This document shows, one piece after another, positions 44,593 through 55,247 of a stretch of DNA of 64,000 bases. The DNA lies in assembly GCF_025665335.1 (NCBI RefSeq), contig NZ_CP106869.1, positions 1,080,501-1,144,500 of the forward strand, read 5' to 3'. The translations under genes were made by a program, and so were the position numbers. Source of the DNA: Xanthomonas sp. AM6. GTDB taxonomy: Bacteria; Pseudomonadota; Gammaproteobacteria; Xanthomonadales; Xanthomonadaceae. The notes beneath the pieces are model-generated. The model worked only from the letters and a program-made list of their open reading frames with translations. It was not told the origin of the DNA and made no database searches. Within the stretch, counting starts at the first letter, position 1, and every line of letters starts with the position of its first letter.

Positions 44593-45264
44593 TCAGCTGC
44601 GCTTGCGCGGCTTGCCGCGCGCCGGCTTCTTGCCGATGGCGGCGCTGGGGTTTTGCCGGGTCGCGAGCACGCCGTCCTCGTGCATCCGCTCCAGCCACGA
44701 CAGCGTGTCGACGTAGGCCAGGAACTGCTGCAGGTAGCCTGGCGACAGCGTGCGCATCAGCGCCAGCGCGCGGTGCACCAGCACGCCGGAGTTCAGCGGG
44801 CCGGCGCCCGATGGCGCTTGCTGCAACGACTGCCGCAGTTGGCTGCGGCTGCGCAACTCGGTCCACAGCTTGCGCGCATCGTCGAGCGCGGGCACCGGCG
44901 CGGATGCGATCGGTGCAGCGGAGGCGGCGGTGTTCGGTGCGGCGTCTGCGAACAGTTCCAGCAGCTCGCCGAGCGGGCCGCGCGGGGCGGCCGGTGTGGC
45001 GCCAGCGTGCTTGGCGTTGGTATCGGTATCGGCGCCGCCATCGGCACCAACCGCCGCCGCCGGCATCCCGGCCATGTCGGCAGCGTAGGCGTCGAGCAGC
45101 GCGGACAGCTTCTGGTCGAGCAGGCGCCGCGCCTGGCCCTGGTGGGCGTCGGCGCGCCGCGCCAGCGCCTCGATGAAGCGCAGGCGCAGCGGATCCACGC
45201 GCGCGCCATGCTGCGCGCGCCATGCCGCGATCCGCGCGCTCGCCGTTGTCGGGTCAGCGCGCAT
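44593..45264 (-). CDS. DUF2894 domain protein of the DUF802 motor-like operon
   Basis: A 223-residue cytoplasmic protein of the DUF2894 family. The N-terminal helix region reads RIAAWRAQHGARVDPLRLRF then IEALARRADAHQGQARRLLD. A low-complexity Ala/Gly linker spans about 65-125. The C-terminal helical part has SPGYLQQFLAYVDTLSWLER and a basic end (KKPARGKPRKRS). No enzymatic motif is visible. It overlaps the upstream OmpA-domain gene by 11 bases. It is found with DUF3348/DUF802/OmpA genes, so it is probably a cytoplasmic part of that complex. Confidence 0.85.
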   Translation of the reverse strand: MRADPTTASARIAAWRAQHGARVDPLRLRFIEALARRADAHQGQARRLLDQKLSALLDAYAADMAGMPAAAVGADGGADTDTNAKHAGATPAAPRGPLGELLELFADAAPNTAASAAPIASAPVPALDDARKLWTELRSRSQLRQSLQQAPSGAGPLNSGVLVHRALALMRTLSPGYLQQFLAYVDTLSWLERMHEDGVLATRQNPSAAIGKKPARGKPRKRS

Positions 45265-45904
45265 GCGGGATCGGGGCGGACTTGGACAGCTTGGGCAGCG
45301 GCGCCATTTCCACGCGCCGGTTGCTGGCGCGCCCGGCTTCGTCGACGTTCGGGCTCACCGGTTGCTGCGAACCGAACGCGGCGGCGAACACCGCGTCGGC
45401 CGGCACGCCTTCGTCGATCAGCGCACGGGTCACGGTCAGCGCGCGCTGCGCCGACAGTTCCCAGTTGTCGGCGAACTGGCGGTTGCTGTCGCGCACCTGG
45501 CGGTCGTCGGTGAAGCCGCTCACCATCAGGATCTCGCCGCGCGCCTTCAGGTAGCCGGCCAGCGGCGCGGCCAGGCTGTTCAGCAGCTCGCGCCCTTCGG
45601 GCTGCAACTGGTCGGAGTTCAGCGCGAACAGCACGCTGCCGCGGATGCCGATGCGGCCATCGACCAGGGTCACCCGGCCGGCCGCCAGCGGCGCGGCCAG
45701 CGCCTGTTCCAGGGTCTTGCGTTGCCGCGCCTCGGCCTGGCGCTGGCGGACTTCCTCGTCCAGCTTGTGCGACAGCTGCAGCTGCACGCCGATCACGCCG
45801 ATCAGGATCAGCACGAAGGCGCCCAGCAGCACCGACATCAGGTCGCCGAACACGGCCCAGATCGGCGCGCCGGCCTCGGCGTCGATTTCCAGCTCGTCGC
45901 TCAT
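45254..45904 (-). CDS. MotB/ZorB-like OmpA-domain stator protein
   Basis: A 216-residue protein with a short acidic N-terminus and one TM, IWAVFGDLMSVLLGAFVLIL. Asp21 in that span occupies the position of the ion-carrying aspartate in MotB-type proteins (aYaDFMTAMMAFF). A short coiled linker (KLDEEVRQRQAEARQRKTLE) and an OmpA-type peptidoglycan-binding domain follow (SVLFALNSDQLQPEGRELLN; SAQRALTVTRALIDEGVPAD; SNRRVEM). Its start overlaps the DUF802 gene stop by four bases. It is the natural partner of that MotA-like protein. Confidence 0.9.
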   Translation of the reverse strand: MSDELEIDAEAGAPIWAVFGDLMSVLLGAFVLILIGVIGVQLQLSHKLDEEVRQRQAEARQRKTLEQALAAPLAAGRVTLVDGRIGIRGSVLFALNSDQLQPEGRELLNSLAAPLAGYLKARGEILMVSGFTDDRQVRDSNRQFADNWELSAQRALTVTRALIDEGVPADAVFAAAFGSQQPVSPNVDEAGRASNRRVEMAPLPKLSKSAPIPHAR

Positions 45905-48237
45905 GCCGCTTCGGCCCCGCCATGCGCGGGCCCTGCCGGCAGCTGGCGCAGTTCCTCGATGATCTGCTTCTGCGACAGCATGCTCAGGTCGATGACCTCG
46001 CGTGCCTGGGCCACGTAATAAGCCAACTGCTCGTCGCTGCGCGCCAGCGATTTGTCCAGCGCCTGCTCGATGCCGTGCAGGCGTTCCAGCAGCGCCGCGT
46101 TCGCCTGGCCGAAGGCCTCCACCGCGCCGCCGAAGGCATCGCCCAGGCTCGCCACTTCGGTGGCGCCGACCGCGACCTGCGCGGCGACCGATTCGAGCTT
46201 GCCGGTCTCGGCCTGGATGTGGTCGGTGAAGCGCGCGCCGACGCGATCGAGCAGGTCCGCCAAGGTGGTGACCAGCGCGTCCACCGCCGTGCGTTGCTCG
46301 GTGGAGGCGTGGTTCACCGCGTCGAGCAGGGTGTGCAGCGTGTCCAGCAGGCGGCTGCGCTCGTCCAGCATGGCGGTGTCGCGGACCATGCTCTCGGAGA
46401 GTTTCTGGCGCAGTTCGGCGACCACGTCGGCGGCGGCCTTCGGCGCTTCGGAGGCGGTCTGCACCAGCCGCGAGATCTCGGCGATGGTCTCGCTGGCGTG
46501 CGCCTGGGTCTGCGCCGCGATCGCCCCTGCGCTGCGTTCGAGCGTGTCGCAGATGTCCTGCTGGCGCTGCGCGATGCGGTCGCCGCTCTGTTCCCAGTGC
46601 GCGTTCACCGCGGCGGCCATCGCGGCGAACGTGTCGGTCCACGCGGCCAGGCGCGCCTGGTCGCGCGCCTGCAGCGCGTCCTGCAGTTGCGCGTGCGATT
46701 GCTGCATGACCGCGACCAGCGCCGCCGCGCGCGCTTCCAGCGTGGTGGCGGCCGCGCCGAGCGCCTGTTCGTTGCGTGCCGCCAGCCCCGCGTTGACCTC
46801 CTCCTGGCGCGCCAACGCATCGCGCCACGCCTGCTGCGCGCCGTCCGCGGTGGCGTCCAGGCGCACCGCGATCGCGTCCAGCGCCTGCGCGTTGCGCGTG
46901 GCCAATTGCGCGTTGAGTTCCTGCTGGCGCGACAGCGCATCGTTCCAGGCCTGCTGCGCCGCGTCCGCGGTGGCGTCCAGGCGTGCGGCGACCGCCTCCA
47001 GCGCCTGCGCATTGCGCGCCGCCAGGCGGTCGTTGAGGTCTTCCTGTCGCGCCAGCGCATCGTTCCAGGCGTGCCTGGCGGCATCCGCCGTGGCGTCCAG
47101 GCGCGTCGACACGGCGTCCAGCAGGCCGTTCGAGCGCGTCGCGAAGCCGTCGCCGAACCCGTCCAGCGCGCCGCGCAGGTCCTGCACCAGGGCCTCGTTG
47201 CTGCTTCGCTGTTCCGCCAGCGCGGCGTCCCAGCTTTGCGCGGCGCGCGCGGCGGCGTTTTCGAAGCCGGCGGCCAGGCCGTCCAGCTGCCGCTGCACGG
47301 CCTGGCCGACCTGCTCGTGCAGCGCGGCGGTCTCGCGCGCCAGGCCGGCCAGCGTGGCCTGCACCACCGGCTGCAGCGCGGCGCCCAGCGCGCGCGCGTT
47401 CTCGGCGACGCCGGCCTGCAGCGACTGCTCCACCGCGCCGGCCAGGCGCGTGTAGGCGGCCTCGGTCCGGGCATGGAAGGCGTCCTGGTGGCTCGCGAGC
47501 CGGTCGCCGCTGGCCGCGCCCTGTTGCTCGACGCTCGCCGCCATCGCCTGCAGCCGGTCGATCAGCGCCGGCATCAGCTCGGTCTGCCGCTGCAGCAGCT
47601 TGAACGCTTCGCTGCGCTGGAAGGCCTGCGAATAGGGGTGCAGGGTGGTGGCGATCTGCAGGTCGAGCAGTTGCACCGCCTGCAGGCGCTCGCGCCGGCA
47701 CAGCGCGGCGAGCAGGCCGAGCATCGCCGAGCTGGCCACGCCGGCGATCGAGGTGCCGAAGGCGAAGCCCAGGCCCTTGACCGGCGCGGCCAGCGAGTCG
47801 CGGATCGCCTGCAGGTCGGTCGCGCTCTCCAGCGCCAGGCCGGTGCCGCGCAGGGTCGCCATCATGCCCAGGAAGGTGCCGAGCATGCCCAGCAGCACCA
47901 GCAGGCCGACCAGGTACGGGGTCAGGCCCGGCGCCGGCAGGGCGATGCGCTCGCCGTCGATGCGCAGGCGCACCGCGTTGCGCAGGCTCGGATCCAGCCG
48001 CTGCAGCCAGCCGCCCAGGTCGGACTGCGCCGCATCGGCCTCGTTCACCGCGCGGACCAGGCTGGCGGTGGCCTGCCGGTAGCGGTACAGCTCCAGCGCG
48101 CCGGCCACGTAGCACGCGCCGATCAGCAGCGCGAAGCTCACGCCCAGCGGGTTGGTGCCGAGGTAGCCGGCACCGATCCAGCCCACGGCGGCGAGGCCGG
48201 CAAGGAACACGACGGAATGGAAGATGGTCTTGGACAT
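45901..48237 (-). CDS. DUF802 protein: MotA/ZorA-like channel with very long repeat tail
   Basis: A 778-residue protein. TM1 (about 8-26) and TM2 (about 33-50) are followed by a cytoplasmic stretch. TM3 is LTPYLVGLLVLLGMLGTFLG at 105-124 and TM4 is FAFGTSIAGVASSAMLGLLA at 159-178. Gly-Thr-Phe-Leu-Gly in TM3 and Ala-Phe-Gly-Thr-Ser in TM4 are the marks of the MotA/ExbB/ZorA superfamily. Residues from about 185 to the end form a long helical tail with three 40-residue DUF802 repeats at 380-499. The tail should project far into the cytoplasm. Function is unproven; a motor or force-transducing role is inferred. Confidence 0.88.
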   Translation of the reverse strand: MSKTIFHSVVFLAGLAAVGWIGAGYLGTNPLGVSFALLIGACYVAGALELYRYRQATASLVRAVNEADAAQSDLGGWLQRLDPSLRNAVRLRIDGERIALPAPGLTPYLVGLLVLLGMLGTFLGMMATLRGTGLALESATDLQAIRDSLAAPVKGLGFAFGTSIAGVASSAMLGLLAALCRRERLQAVQLLDLQIATTLHPYSQAFQRSEAFKLLQRQTELMPALIDRLQAMAASVEQQGAASGDRLASHQDAFHARTEAAYTRLAGAVEQSLQAGVAENARALGAALQPVVQATLAGLARETAALHEQVGQAVQRQLDGLAAGFENAAARAAQSWDAALAEQRSSNEALVQDLRGALDGFGDGFATRSNGLLDAVSTRLDATADAARHAWNDALARQEDLNDRLAARNAQALEAVAARLDATADAAQQAWNDALSRQQELNAQLATRNAQALDAIAVRLDATADGAQQAWRDALARQEEVNAGLAARNEQALGAAATTLEARAAALVAVMQQSHAQLQDALQARDQARLAAWTDTFAAMAAAVNAHWEQSGDRIAQRQQDICDTLERSAGAIAAQTQAHASETIAEISRLVQTASEAPKAAADVVAELRQKLSESMVRDTAMLDERSRLLDTLHTLLDAVNHASTEQRTAVDALVTTLADLLDRVGARFTDHIQAETGKLESVAAQVAVGATEVASLGDAFGGAVEAFGQANAALLERLHGIEQALDKSLARSDEQLAYYVAQAREVIDLSMLSQKQIIEELRQLPAGPAHGGAEAA
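46741..47100 (-). repeat. Three 120-base in-frame repeats in the DUF802 gene
   Basis: Codons 380-419, 420-459 and 460-499 encode three 40-residue units, each starting LDATADxAxxAW(N/R)DAL, then ARQE or SRQQ, and later (L/V)NxxLAxRNxQAL. Older, diverged units are visible before them (for example SWDAALAEQRSSNEAL near 335-350). Confidence 0.9.
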
Positions 48238-48247
48238 GATGTCTCGG

Positions 48248-48982
48248 TCAGCGGGTGCGAAGCGCTGCGAGCAGCGCCTCGATGGGATGGAAGCGGACGT
48301 CCAGCTCGGCGCGCAGCACGCTGCGCATGTCCTGGCGGAACACGTCCAGCCAGGCGCCGGCGCCGGCCGCCGGTGGGGCGTCCGCCGGTTGCGCGGCGGC
48401 CGGCACGGTGTGCGCGGCCTCGCGCAGGCGTTCGAAATGCTGGCCCAGCAGCGCCGGGACGGCGGACAGCAGGGTCTGCTCGCGCGGGCTCAGGGTCGAT
48501 TCCATGACCGCGTCCAGCTCCGCCAGCCGCGCCATGTCCGGCGAGGACCGCGCCAGCGTGTCGCGCAGCTGGCCGCGCAGGCGGCCGGTGGCGGTCAGCA
48601 TCGCCCGCTGCAGCGACAGGTAGCGCTCGCGGAACGGCGCGTAGTCGGCTGCCGCGTTCGCGTCGGCGCCCTCGCCTTGCGCAGTGGCCCGTGGCCGGCC
48701 GGTGCCTGCGGCGGGATCGGCGCAGATGGCCTCCTCCAGCGCAGTGCGTGCGCGCGCGCATTCGTCCTCGTCCACGCCCGCGGCGGGCGCCTCGTCGTCG
48801 AGGGCGGGCAGCTTGCCGTCCAGGGCCCTGGACACGGCGACGGCGCGCGTCCAGTCGATCCACTGGCCGAGGCGGTCGGCCAGCGCCGGGCTGGACGGCG
48901 CCATGTCGGCGTCGCTGAGACGTGCGAGGAGGCGAATGAACGCCGGGCCCGGGACAGGCGGCCGTGGAGGAGCTTTCGCCAT
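48248..48982 (-). CDS. DUF3348 domain protein, first gene of the DUF802 operon
   Basis: A 244-residue cytoplasmic protein of the DUF3348 family: PGPAFIRLLARLSDADMAPS and RLGQWIDWTRAVAVSRALDG at the N-terminus, an acidic middle, FRERYLSLQRAMLTATGRLR, and DVFRQDMRSVLRAELDVRFH near the end. No catalytic motif is recognised. It precedes the DUF802 gene by 10 bases. The ATG at 48982 is preferred over one seven codons upstream. It probably contacts the motor-like DUF802/OmpA pair, which is inferred from conserved gene order. Confidence 0.85.
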   Translation of the reverse strand: MAKAPPRPPVPGPAFIRLLARLSDADMAPSSPALADRLGQWIDWTRAVAVSRALDGKLPALDDEAPAAGVDEDECARARTALEEAICADPAAGTGRPRATAQGEGADANAAADYAPFRERYLSLQRAMLTATGRLRGQLRDTLARSSPDMARLAELDAVMESTLSPREQTLLSAVPALLGQHFERLREAAHTVPAAAQPADAPPAAGAGAWLDVFRQDMRSVLRAELDVRFHPIEALLAALRTR

Positions 48983-49453: not shown

Positions 49454-50161
49454 CTACAACTGCTGCTCCCCGCGCAGCAGCGGATACGGGTTGAGCGATT
49501 CCCCCTTCCACCATTGCCGTTCCGGGCCGAGCCGGTGGATCTCGAAATGCAGGTGCGGCGCGCCGGGGTCGGCGTTGCCGGTGCTGCCGACGTAGCCGAT
49601 CACCTGGCCGCGGCGGATCGCCTGCTTCTCGGCCAGCCCGTCCGCGTAGCGCTGCAGGTGCGCGTAGTAGTACGCGTAACGGCCGCCGGGTTCGAACTGG
49701 TACACGGTGAGCCCGCCGCGTTCGCTGTCGAACAGCTTTTCCACGCTGCCGTCGGCGACCGCCAGCACCGGCGTGCCGGCCGGCGCCAGGATGTCGATCG
49801 CGTCGTGGCGGCGGCCCTGGCTGCGGGCGTCGGTGAAGGTGTCCTGCAACTGGTCCCGGGTCACGCCCTGCACCGGGATCAGCAGGCCGTCGGAGGCGCT
49901 GGCAGGGACCGTGGCGGCGCCTGCCGCCGGCGCCGGCTGCGTTTGCGCAGTGTCCGGCGCGGCCGGCGCAGGCACTGCCGCCGCGGCCGCGGGTTGCGCC
50001 TTCGCGGCACCGGGAGCGGCGTCCGCCACCGGCGTGGCGGCAGTGGCGACGGCGGCCGACGGCGCCGGGCTGGGGCGCACCTGCACCAGGTCGCCGTGCA
50101 GCAGCCAGTAGCCCAGCGCCGCCGCCGCGATCAGCACTGCCATGCCGAGCACGATCCGCAT
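49454..50161 (-). CDS. M23 (LytM-type) metallopeptidase
   Basis: A 235-residue secreted or membrane-anchored cell-wall endopeptidase. A hydrophobic anchor lies at residues 3-20, followed by a long Ala/Pro-rich linker to about residue 90 and the LytM domain. The zinc and catalytic residues are visible: His119 and Asp123 in RRHDAID, His168 in YYYAHLQ, and His203/His205 in PHLHFE. An intact catalytic set suggests an active enzyme. It lies just behind an L,D-transpeptidase gene with a four-base gap, so both likely act on peptidoglycan. Confidence 0.92.
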   Translation of the reverse strand: MRIVLGMAVLIAAAALGYWLLHGDLVQVRPSPAPSAAVATAATPVADAAPGAAKAQPAAAAAVPAPAAPDTAQTQPAPAAGAATVPASASDGLLIPVQGVTRDQLQDTFTDARSQGRRHDAIDILAPAGTPVLAVADGSVEKLFDSERGGLTVYQFEPGGRYAYYYAHLQRYADGLAEKQAIRRGQVIGYVGSTGNADPGAPHLHFEIHRLGPERQWWKGESLNPYPLLRGEQQL

Positions 50162-53356: not shown

Positions 53357-53725
53357 ATGTCGATCAGCGATGCGGAAGCGGTGGTGATGGAGGTGCTGTG
53401 GAACCGGCATCCGCTTGCGGCCGAGGAGGTGTTCGAAGCCCTGGCCGGGCATGGCGGCTGGGCCGAGCCCACGGTCAAGACCCTGCTCAACCGGCTGCTC
53501 AACAAGGGCGCGATCCGCGCCGACAAACAGGGCCGCCGCTATCTGTACGCGCCGCTGCTGCAGCGCGAGCAGTGGGTGCAGCAACAGAGCGAAGGCCTGC
53601 TCGAACGCCTGTTCGGCGGCCGCATCGCGCCGCTGGTGGCGCACTTCAGCGAACGCGGCAAGCTCAGCGACGCCGATATCGCCGAACTCAAACGACTGAT
53701 CCAGGAGCTGGACGATGAGCGTTGA
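53357..53725 (+). CDS. blaI: BlaI/MecI/CopY-family repressor
   Basis: A 122-residue winged-helix repressor: SISDAEAVVMEVLWNRHPLA, then EPTVKTLLNRLLNKGAIRAD with the recognition helix, and DKQGRRYLYAPLLQREQW in the wing, followed by a helical dimerisation/cleavage region. Such proteins are inactivated when their membrane partner protease is triggered. That partner follows, overlapping by 11 bases. No beta-lactamase gene is in the window, so the target genes are elsewhere or the pair senses something other than beta-lactams. Confidence 0.92.
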   Translation: MSISDAEAVVMEVLWNRHPLAAEEVFEALAGHGGWAEPTVKTLLNRLLNKGAIRADKQGRRYLYAPLLQREQWVQQQSEGLLERLFGGRIAPLVAHFSERGKLSDADIAELKRLIQELDDER

Positions 53726-55247
53726 ACACTTCGTAGCGGGAATATGGGCGACGGCGCTGGCCGGCAGCGCGGCGATCGTGGCGGTGCTGGCGCTGCGCGC
53801 GCCGGTGCGGCGGATGTTCGGCGCCAGCGTCGCCTACGCATTGTGGAGCGTGGTGCCGCTGGCGATGCTGGCGGTGCTGCTGCCTGGCGATCTGCGCCCG
53901 GCGCTGCCCGCGGTGCGGGCGCTGGCGCTGCCGCAGGTGTGGGTGGGCGCGTCGCAGGCGTCGGCTGGCGCCGACGGTGCGCTGTCGGCCGCAGGCAACC
54001 AGGCCGCGCTCTGGCTGGCTGCGCTGTGGCTGCTGGGCGCCGCGACGATGGCCGTCGCGCTGTGGCGGCAGCAGCGGCGCTACCGGCGCAGCCTGGGGCG
54101 GCTGTCGCAGGGCGCCGATGGCGTGCTGTACGCGCAGCACGCGGTGCACGGTCCGCTGGTGCTCGGCGCCTGGCGGCCGCGCGTGGTGCTGCCGCTGGAT
54201 TTCGCCCAGCGCTATCCGGCCGCGCAGGCGGAACTGGTGCTGGCGCACGAGCGCATGCATATCGCCCGCGGCGATACCCGCTGCAACCTGCTGCTGGCGG
54301 CGTTGCGCTGCGTGTACTGGTTCAATTCGGTGCTGCACTGGGCCGCGCCGCGGTTCCGCTTCGACCAGGAACTGGCCTGCGATGCGGCGGTGCTGGCGCG
54401 GCATCCGGCCTCGCGCCGCAGCTATGCCGAGGCGATGCTGCAGACCCAGCTGGATGCGATCGCGCTGCCGGTCGGCTGCCATTGGCAGGCCGGGCAGACC
54501 TTGCGGCAACGGATCGCAATGCTGCATCGGCCGGCGGTGACCGGCTGGCGGCGGCGTGCCGGCATCGCCGTGGTGGCGATGGCGGCGCTATGCGGCGGCG
54601 CTTCGGCCTGGGCGTTGCAGCCGCCGCGGCCTTCCGCGCTGGCGGCGAGCGGCAATGCGCCTGCGAATGCGCAAGCCGCGGATGCGGATGCGCTGGCGGG
54701 GAACGCAGCTGCGCTGGGCGCTGCGCCGGCAAGCAGCGGAAAGCGCTTGCCGATGACGCTCGCGGCCGCAACCGGCGCCGCGGACATGGCCGCCAAGCGC
54801 GCGACCACGCCTGCCAAGCCAGTGATGCTGCTGCCGCCGCGCTATCCGCGAGCAGCGCTGCGCGAAGGCGCTTCGGGAAATGTGATGTTGTTGGTCGACG
54901 TGGATGAAGCCGGTACGGCCAGCGATGTGCGCTTGCTGGGTCGCGGCAGCGGCAATGCGGCACTGGACCAGGCGGCCATCGCGGCCGCCCGGCAGTGGCG
55001 CTTCACGCCGGCGCAGGAGCACGGGCGTGCGATCCGTGGCCGGCTAAAGATTCCGGTCACGTTCGAGTCCGGGATGCATCCTGTCGCGGCGCCCGCGGGG
55101 CTGGCCGGTGCGGACGGCTACCGCTGGTATCTGCTGGATGCGGATACGCGCGATACGGGCCAGCGCATGTGCGATGTGGTCACGTCCGATGGGCAAGGGC
55201 CGGCCCGGCGCGTGTATTGCGGCGTGACCGTGGCGACACGGAGATGA
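53715..55247 (+). CDS. BlaR1/MecR1-like M56 protease fused to a TonB C-terminal domain
   Basis: A 510-residue membrane protein. Hydrophobic spans occur near residues 8-27, 40-57 and 97-117. The M56 zinc site is LAHERMHIARGD (HExxH at 178-182) with Glu219 in FDQELACDAAVLARH. Residues from about 285 run through a TM (AGIAVVAMAALCGGASAWAL) and an Ala-rich linker into a TonB-type C-terminal domain at about 375-450 (PPRYPRAALREGASGNVMLL; AIAAARQWRFTPAQEHGRAI). It lacks the penicillin-binding sensor domain of BlaR1, so the TonB-like part may be the periplasmic sensor. Start overlaps blaI. Confidence 0.9.
   Translation: MSVEHFVAGIWATALAGSAAIVAVLALRAPVRRMFGASVAYALWSVVPLAMLAVLLPGDLRPALPAVRALALPQVWVGASQASAGADGALSAAGNQAALWLAALWLLGAATMAVALWRQQRRYRRSLGRLSQGADGVLYAQHAVHGPLVLGAWRPRVVLPLDFAQRYPAAQAELVLAHERMHIARGDTRCNLLLAALRCVYWFNSVLHWAAPRFRFDQELACDAAVLARHPASRRSYAEAMLQTQLDAIALPVGCHWQAGQTLRQRIAMLHRPAVTGWRRRAGIAVVAMAALCGGASAWALQPPRPSALAASGNAPANAQAADADALAGNAAALGAAPASSGKRLPMTLAAATGAADMAAKRATTPAKPVMLLPPRYPRAALREGASGNVMLLVDVDEAGTASDVRLLGRGSGNAALDQAAIAAARQWRFTPAQEHGRAIRGRLKIPVTFESGMHPVAAPAGLAGADGYRWYLLDADTRDTGQRMCDVVTSDGQGPARRVYCGVTVATRR

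Follow-up and report, generated by a model that had tools for sequence, protein, structure and literature searches.

The window analysed here is a stretch of 64,000 nucleotides from Xanthomonas sp. AM6 (contig NZ_CP106869.1), and on its minus strand four closely packed genes occupy positions 44593-48982. In the order of transcription, the first (48248-48982) encodes a DUF3348 protein of 244 aa that is predicted to be all-alpha (Pfam PF11828, 3.9e-90; PADLOC PDLC00658, 4.6e-92), and the second (45901-48237) a MotA-like DUF802 protein of 778 aa (Pfam PF05650, 2.9e-35) which the ZorA3 models of PADLOC identify as ZorA of Zorya type III. Next come zorB (45254-45904), coding for a MotB/OmpA-type protein of 216 aa (PADLOC PDLC00651, 6.1e-115; NCBIfam NF006547, 378.9 bits with a cut-off of 194; Pfam PF00691, 5e-18), and a gene (44593-45264) for a DUF2894 protein of 223 aa (Pfam PF11445, 2.1e-58; PADLOC PDLC00652, 1.7e-70). 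The DUF3348 gene and zorA are separated by 10 bp, zorA and zorB overlap by 4 bp, and zorB overlaps the DUF2894 gene by 11 bp. Spacing and Pfam families both agree with the tight four-gene operon described in an earlier note on this DNA. Directly upstream on the same strand lies a peptidase M23 gene (49454-50161), which is found near the operon in only some of the loci from the same genus. Further away, a plus-strand gene (53715-55247) combines a BlaR1-type M56 peptidase domain and a TonB C-terminal domain in a single chain.

For all four proteins the best PADLOC models are those of Zorya type III, and they cover most of the length of each. ZorA matches the type III models PDLC00647-00650 with E values from 0 to 3.2e-285, one ZorA3 model spanning residues 1-776. 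Of the features that define membership of type III, those readable from sequence are present, namely the ZorA profile, a ZorB with a transmembrane Asp and an OmpA-like domain, and DUF3348 and DUF2894 genes flanking zorAB. Judged by these sequence criteria, the operon is almost certainly a Zorya type III anti-phage system (probability about 0.97). Neither ZorC nor ZorD nor ZorE was found among the four genes or the 10 flanking ORFs scanned, some of which are perhaps not true genes and none of which has a PADLOC match at E 0.01; this had also been remarked in the earlier note, and it places the operon outside types I and II. Since the papers use ZorF for DUF3348 and ZorG for DUF2894 while PADLOC-DB calls DUF2894 ZorF3 and DUF3348 ZorG3, we keep the DUF names throughout.

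The "unknown purpose" that the earlier note assigned to the operon is therefore outdated. Zorya type III was defined in 2021 with 6,401 reported loci, the gene pair being printed there as zorBC, and the type III operon of Stenotrophomonas nitritireducens DSM 12575, carried on a plasmid, reduced plaque formation on E. coli BL21-AI for at least one phage (PMC8565338). The same source proposes DUF3348 and DUF2894 as regulators of ZorAB. The classification was repeated in 2025 for the same host group (PMC11890865), and in 2026 a Ralstonia solanacearum type III Zorya was used to illustrate how highly conserved a defence system can be (PMC13064858). The operon thus adds one more copy of a known system; within the open-licence literature searched, we found no study of the type III mechanism.

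The probable motor and its partner proteins

The helices of MotA/ExbB/ZorA type that had been read from the ZorA sequence are borne out, with the motifs GTFLG at residues 120-124 and AFGTS at 159-163. Within these, T121 and S163 are identical in 84/84 aligned rows and T162 in 83 of the 84. The MotB-like character attributed to ZorB holds as well. Its Asp21 lies inside the single transmembrane helix and is kept in 83/83 rows, and in 179/179 rows of a larger, partly redundant set in which some genomes are present twice. Over the same 179 rows, the OmpA-type domain keeps D133, N147, L150, S151, R154 and R196 without exception; we take these residues to be the OmpA-type wall-binding motif, through which ZorB would attach to the wall.

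The relationship to the wider motor superfamily is less close in terms of scores. Pfam MotA_ExbB (PF01618) gives ZorA 14.8 bits, below its cut-off of 22.9 (E 0.024), and ZorB stays below the NCBIfam MotB cut-offs, for example 43.8 for NF006548 with 277 needed. The PADLOC ZorA3 models do cover TM3-TM4, in keeping with the superfamily placement proposed earlier, and so do the NCBIfam ZorA models, which match residues about 110-196 (best 2.2e-8) below their cut-offs. These matches and the conservation of Asp21 run counter to both outcomes that the earlier note named as refuting its reading. Weak matches were also obtained to the chains of the solved Shewanella type I complex 8VVN (1.1e-4 for ZorA, 0.0018 for ZorB). 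By motif, Asp21 and the Thr and Ser residues of ZorA would be placed where types I and II have an Asp and a Ser/Thr ring (PMC11890865).

The AlphaFold2 model of DUF3348 (pLDDT 82, pTM 0.78) consists of helices only; that of DUF2894 (pLDDT 76, pTM 0.42) also shows helices, with a low-confidence middle and an uncertain overall arrangement. There is no strand in either model, neither matched a solved structure with Foldseek at E 0.001, and profile searches of the PDB with the two proteins gave nothing convincing. Searches of Pfam, NCBIfam and PADLOC returned no nuclease or helicase family for any protein of the operon. Polar residues Q125, R136, R140, D157, E226 and R230 of DUF3348 are invariant over 79 sequences, and the C-terminus of DUF2894 is basic, 153 of 162 unique sequences having a net charge of at least +4 over the final 20 residues; the same charge is reached by DUF3348 in 0/163, ZorB in 35/162 and ZorA in 1/162. 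The basic tail is a hint only, because high-GC genomes favour arginine. Both features, together with the nuclease-type partners of types I and II (PMC11890865), might be taken to mean that DUF3348 or DUF2894 is an unrecognised nuclease. Against this speak the purely helical models (with the reservation made for DUF2894) and the structure and profile searches, which gave no convincing match, and we regard a hidden nuclease as very unlikely. The two proteins may be new effectors or assembly factors, as the earlier note suggested. Outside the usual hosts, PF11445 (DUF2894) scored above its cut-off in Corynebacterium glutamicum, one of 14 control genomes.

Distribution and inheritance of the operon

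The genome of strain AM6 carries one DUF3348 copy. Matches to this family were found in 20/20 genomes of the same genus and in 34/34 and 78/81 genomes of two other genera (g15 and g25). At the level of the family, 106 of 247 genomes have one, and these belong to 17 of 46 genera. Wider samples gave 8 of 370 genomes of the class (four of them from the same family) and 17 of 299 genomes of the phylum (six from the same family, one below the cut-off). Among 72,556 plasmid records there were 27 matches, every one on a plasmid larger than 360 kb, and 50,697 phage records contained no DUF3348 match.

Gene order is strongly kept. Of 83 regions bearing the operon, 82 have all four genes with unchanged order and strand (L060, which lacks zorB, is the exception), so that the arrangement is not due to chance; an 84th fetched region, L138, whose genome match was below the cut-off, has no operon. 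The same arrangement is seen in 20/20 loci of the own-genus set. Of 80 named loci, 77 show all four genes, and contig ends truncate the remaining three (L208, L232 and L234). These sets overlap, some of the records being the same genomes. In one of the 77, L223 from Pseudoxanthomonas sp. NC8, the zorA matches are scattered among several frames, which means either a frame-broken copy or assembly errors. Another locus, L226, is on a contig labelled Bacillus subtilis SK7B5 and has a type III operon with a ZorA of 749 aa, a length also seen in Dyella; the record is probably contaminated. In genome G019 of the same genus (L060:9643-12004) the DUF3348 gene is whole and zorB is missing, and a single open frame joins ZorA, which reaches no further than about residue 432 of the window copy, to DUF2894, which starts at about residue 51. 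G019 is also the sole genome of the 20 without a match to JetA (DUF3375).

The surroundings of the operon are much less constant than the operon itself. It adjoins the transketolase gene (tkt) in 19 of the 20 own-genus genomes, the 20th having no tkt within the fetched 15 kb; in the other genera examined the operon has no tkt neighbour, and the flanks vary even inside several genera. The gene families of the operon span 25 to 28 genus groups, compared with nine at most for any other flank cluster; the cluster with nine consists of opposite-strand ORFs over zorA, and the next widest has eight. In eight cases, two loci belonging to different genera have at least two flank clusters in common on one side. 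A tree built from the N-terminal part of ZorA, ZorB and DUF3348 (84 rows) needs 34 changes of label, where the minimum is 27 and shuffled labels require 64.5 on average. Judged by these labels, inheritance seems to have mostly followed the genus, with some apparent transfers.

The operon could alternatively be a housekeeping motor for the upkeep of the cell wall or envelope in xanthomonads and their relatives, phage protection from a plasmid being a by-product. The almost complete presence in three genera, the nearly constant position next to tkt within the genus, the flanking ORFs devoid of PADLOC matches and the lack of DUF3348 in phage records would all be compatible with this explanation. 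We have nevertheless rejected near-fixation as a proof of it after a control with Wadjet: JetA is found in 19/20 genomes of the same genus, and being almost equally fixed it shows that near-fixation does not set the operon apart. Moreover, fewer than half of the genomes of the family possess DUF3348, in several genera the flanks differ from genome to genome, the operon of G019 is broken and a published assay demonstrated protection (PMC8565338). On balance a housekeeping role appears unlikely.

The length-variable tail of ZorA

ZorA is composed of a motor part (residues 1 to about 200) and a long helical tail with a variable middle and a conserved distal portion. The tail comprises about 590 residues after TM4, and the earlier comparison with the long tails of ZorA proteins is upheld. 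Its hydrophobic residues recur with the spacing of a long coiled coil: for ZorA forms of 698 aa the period is 3.67 within residues 240-460 and 3.58 within 460-690, a result obtained with 35 unique sequences taken as ungapped, a few pairs of which are out of register (lowest block identity 0.05).

To compare lengths, rows more than 90% alike were thinned from 179 to 124 and the window copy was added to give 125. The ZorA and ZorB row sets leave out L060 (broken), L208 (contig end), L223 (split frames) and the duplicate entry of the window, and homologue start codons are the Met nearest the aligned start, as chosen by script. In window residue numbers, a single length predominates for 14-223 (120/125 rows), 223-290 (121/125) and 599-740 (123/124), and the mid-tail takes 24 different lengths between 336 and 533 and 15 between 533 and 599. 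All 125 rows contain P290 and Y740, which can serve as tail anchors; type III ZorA frames containing both range from 555 to 1048 aa.

P290 and Y740 lie 370 residues apart in 51 rows; these rows carry 19 group labels between them, a mixture of codes and genus names with some overlap. The remaining 74 rows show 36 distinct differences from this base length, and these cluster on whole helical turns, with a mean resultant R of 0.827 at 3.635 residues per turn. None of 5000 random integer sets scored as high when the period was scanned anew for each of them. A reduced set of 14 differences, from which multiples of smaller members had been removed, gave a best R of 0.818, and 0/3000 random sets reached it. 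Within the full set, 31 of the 36 differences lie within 0.15 turn, the exceptions being 23, 66, -66, 186 and 261. Two controls at the 3.635 period were flat, the DUF2894 linker with 0.046 and the DUF3348 loop with 0.092. A control with type I tails was dropped because the ZorA_1 model scored above its cut-off in only 2 of the 370 class genomes. This whole-turn length rule over 125 ZorA rows is a new result of the present analysis.

Within the genus, lengths differ in exact steps of 40 residues. The 20 genomes fall into ZorA classes of 698 aa (5), 738 aa (1), 778 aa (5, including the window) and 818 aa (8), plus one broken form of 533 aa. The intact classes are explained by copies of a 120-bp (40-residue) tandem repeat, which Tandem Repeats Finder places in the mid-tail of the window gene with 3.1 copies (46748-47122, minus strand) and which is marked by Trp residues at 391, 431 and 471. 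With a rise of 1.5 Å per residue in a helix, one such step would be about 6 nm. Other Trp spacings were seen in single examples, 51 in Stenotrophomonas, 62 in a g15 genome and 149 in a Burkholderiaceae record.

Since the mid-tail changes its length mostly by whole turns, the tail behaves as one continuous rod that preserves its phase from motor to tip. A kept register would be expected of any coiled coil; that the rod rotates is something we infer. The distal tail (residues about 599-760; 45958-46443, minus strand), around RSDEQLAYYVAQARE at 733-747, ranks among the most conserved parts of ZorA and is a candidate docking site for DUF3348 and DUF2894. Conservation points to a precise tip at which an effector should bind.

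Proposed mechanism and comparison with known systems

These observations can be combined in a model in which ZorA and ZorB would assemble 5:2 into an ion-driven motor of the inner membrane, as in the complexes solved for types I and II, where both the ZorA extension and the peptidoglycan domain of ZorB are required (PMC8565338, PMC11890865). The OmpA domain of ZorB, with its conserved motif, would grip the peptidoglycan. By analogy with types I and II, phage injection would disturb the cell wall, the disturbance would act on ZorB and the ion path past Asp21 would open. Force or rotation might then travel down the helical ZorA tail, the register of which is rod-like, and DUF3348 and DUF2894 might dock on its near-invariant distal part as the effectors that substitute for ZorCD or ZorE. 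As neither DUF protein has a detectable nuclease or helicase domain, any action on DNA would have to come about through the basic tail of DUF2894 or through recruitment of a nuclease encoded elsewhere.

The invariance of the ion-path residues (D21 of ZorB, T121 and S163 of ZorA) argues for the motor, and for docking of the DUF proteins at the tail tip it is conservation that provides the evidence. Several points count against the model: types I and II are described as acting through nuclease partners and none was found in the operon, the published protection assay relied on a plasmid in E. coli, five of the 36 length differences lie off the whole turns, and during infection of Burkholderia cenocepacia change was confined to the first one or two genes of Zorya I and Zorya III (PMC12584637). 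Taken as a whole, from motor through rod to tip, we would give the mechanism an even chance. A bolder version considers type III as a nuclease-free Zorya whose motor turns a rod of variable length but kept phase, the tip presenting DUF3348 and DUF2894 with the basic tail gripping DNA, so that defence would be mechanical and not enzymatic; we consider this version unlikely.

The same conserved ion path would also suit a channel, with activated ZorAB passing ions to kill or stall the infected cell and the DUF proteins acting as gates. Abortive infection driven by a proton channel was an early proposal for Zorya (restated in PMC8565338), and an operon lacking any nuclease or helicase match is in line with it. 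However, depolarisation was sought in the Zorya systems tested and none was seen (PMC11890865). A channel would in addition leave the conserved distal tail without a clear task, and we consider this explanation quite improbable.

ExbBD, TolQR and GldLM belong to the same wider group of 5:2 ion-driven motors; they are not known to possess an OmpA domain or a long tail, and the MotA_ExbB score of ZorA, below the cut-off, also sets the operon apart from them. With MotAB and PomAB it shares the transmembrane Asp of the B subunit, MotA-like TM3-TM4 helices and the OmpA-like domain, but its proteins fall short of both the NCBIfam MotB and the Pfam MotA_ExbB cut-offs and ZorA has a very long tail. 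Zorya types I and II have in common with it the ZorA/ZorB motor with transmembrane Asp and OmpA-like domain and also the long cytoplasmic extension of ZorA. They differ in that ZorC and ZorD or ZorE are replaced here by helical DUF proteins, and the size of their components is reported to be well conserved within each type (PMC11890865), in contrast to the 555 to 1048 aa of the type III ZorA frames with both tail anchors.

Compared with Zorya type III as defined (PMC8565338, PADLOC), the operon has the same four genes in the same host group (PMC11890865), and nothing distinguishes it as a system; we found no mention of the 40-residue steps within the genus in the published descriptions consulted. 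What makes it interesting is the effector question and the whole-turn rule for tail length, rather than the discovery of a new system. The rule provides sequence evidence for a continuous helical rod with kept phase. Type III is the Zorya type without a recognisable DNA-cutting partner, and for this reason it puts to the test the suggestion that every Zorya type recruits a nuclease-like complex (PMC11890865).
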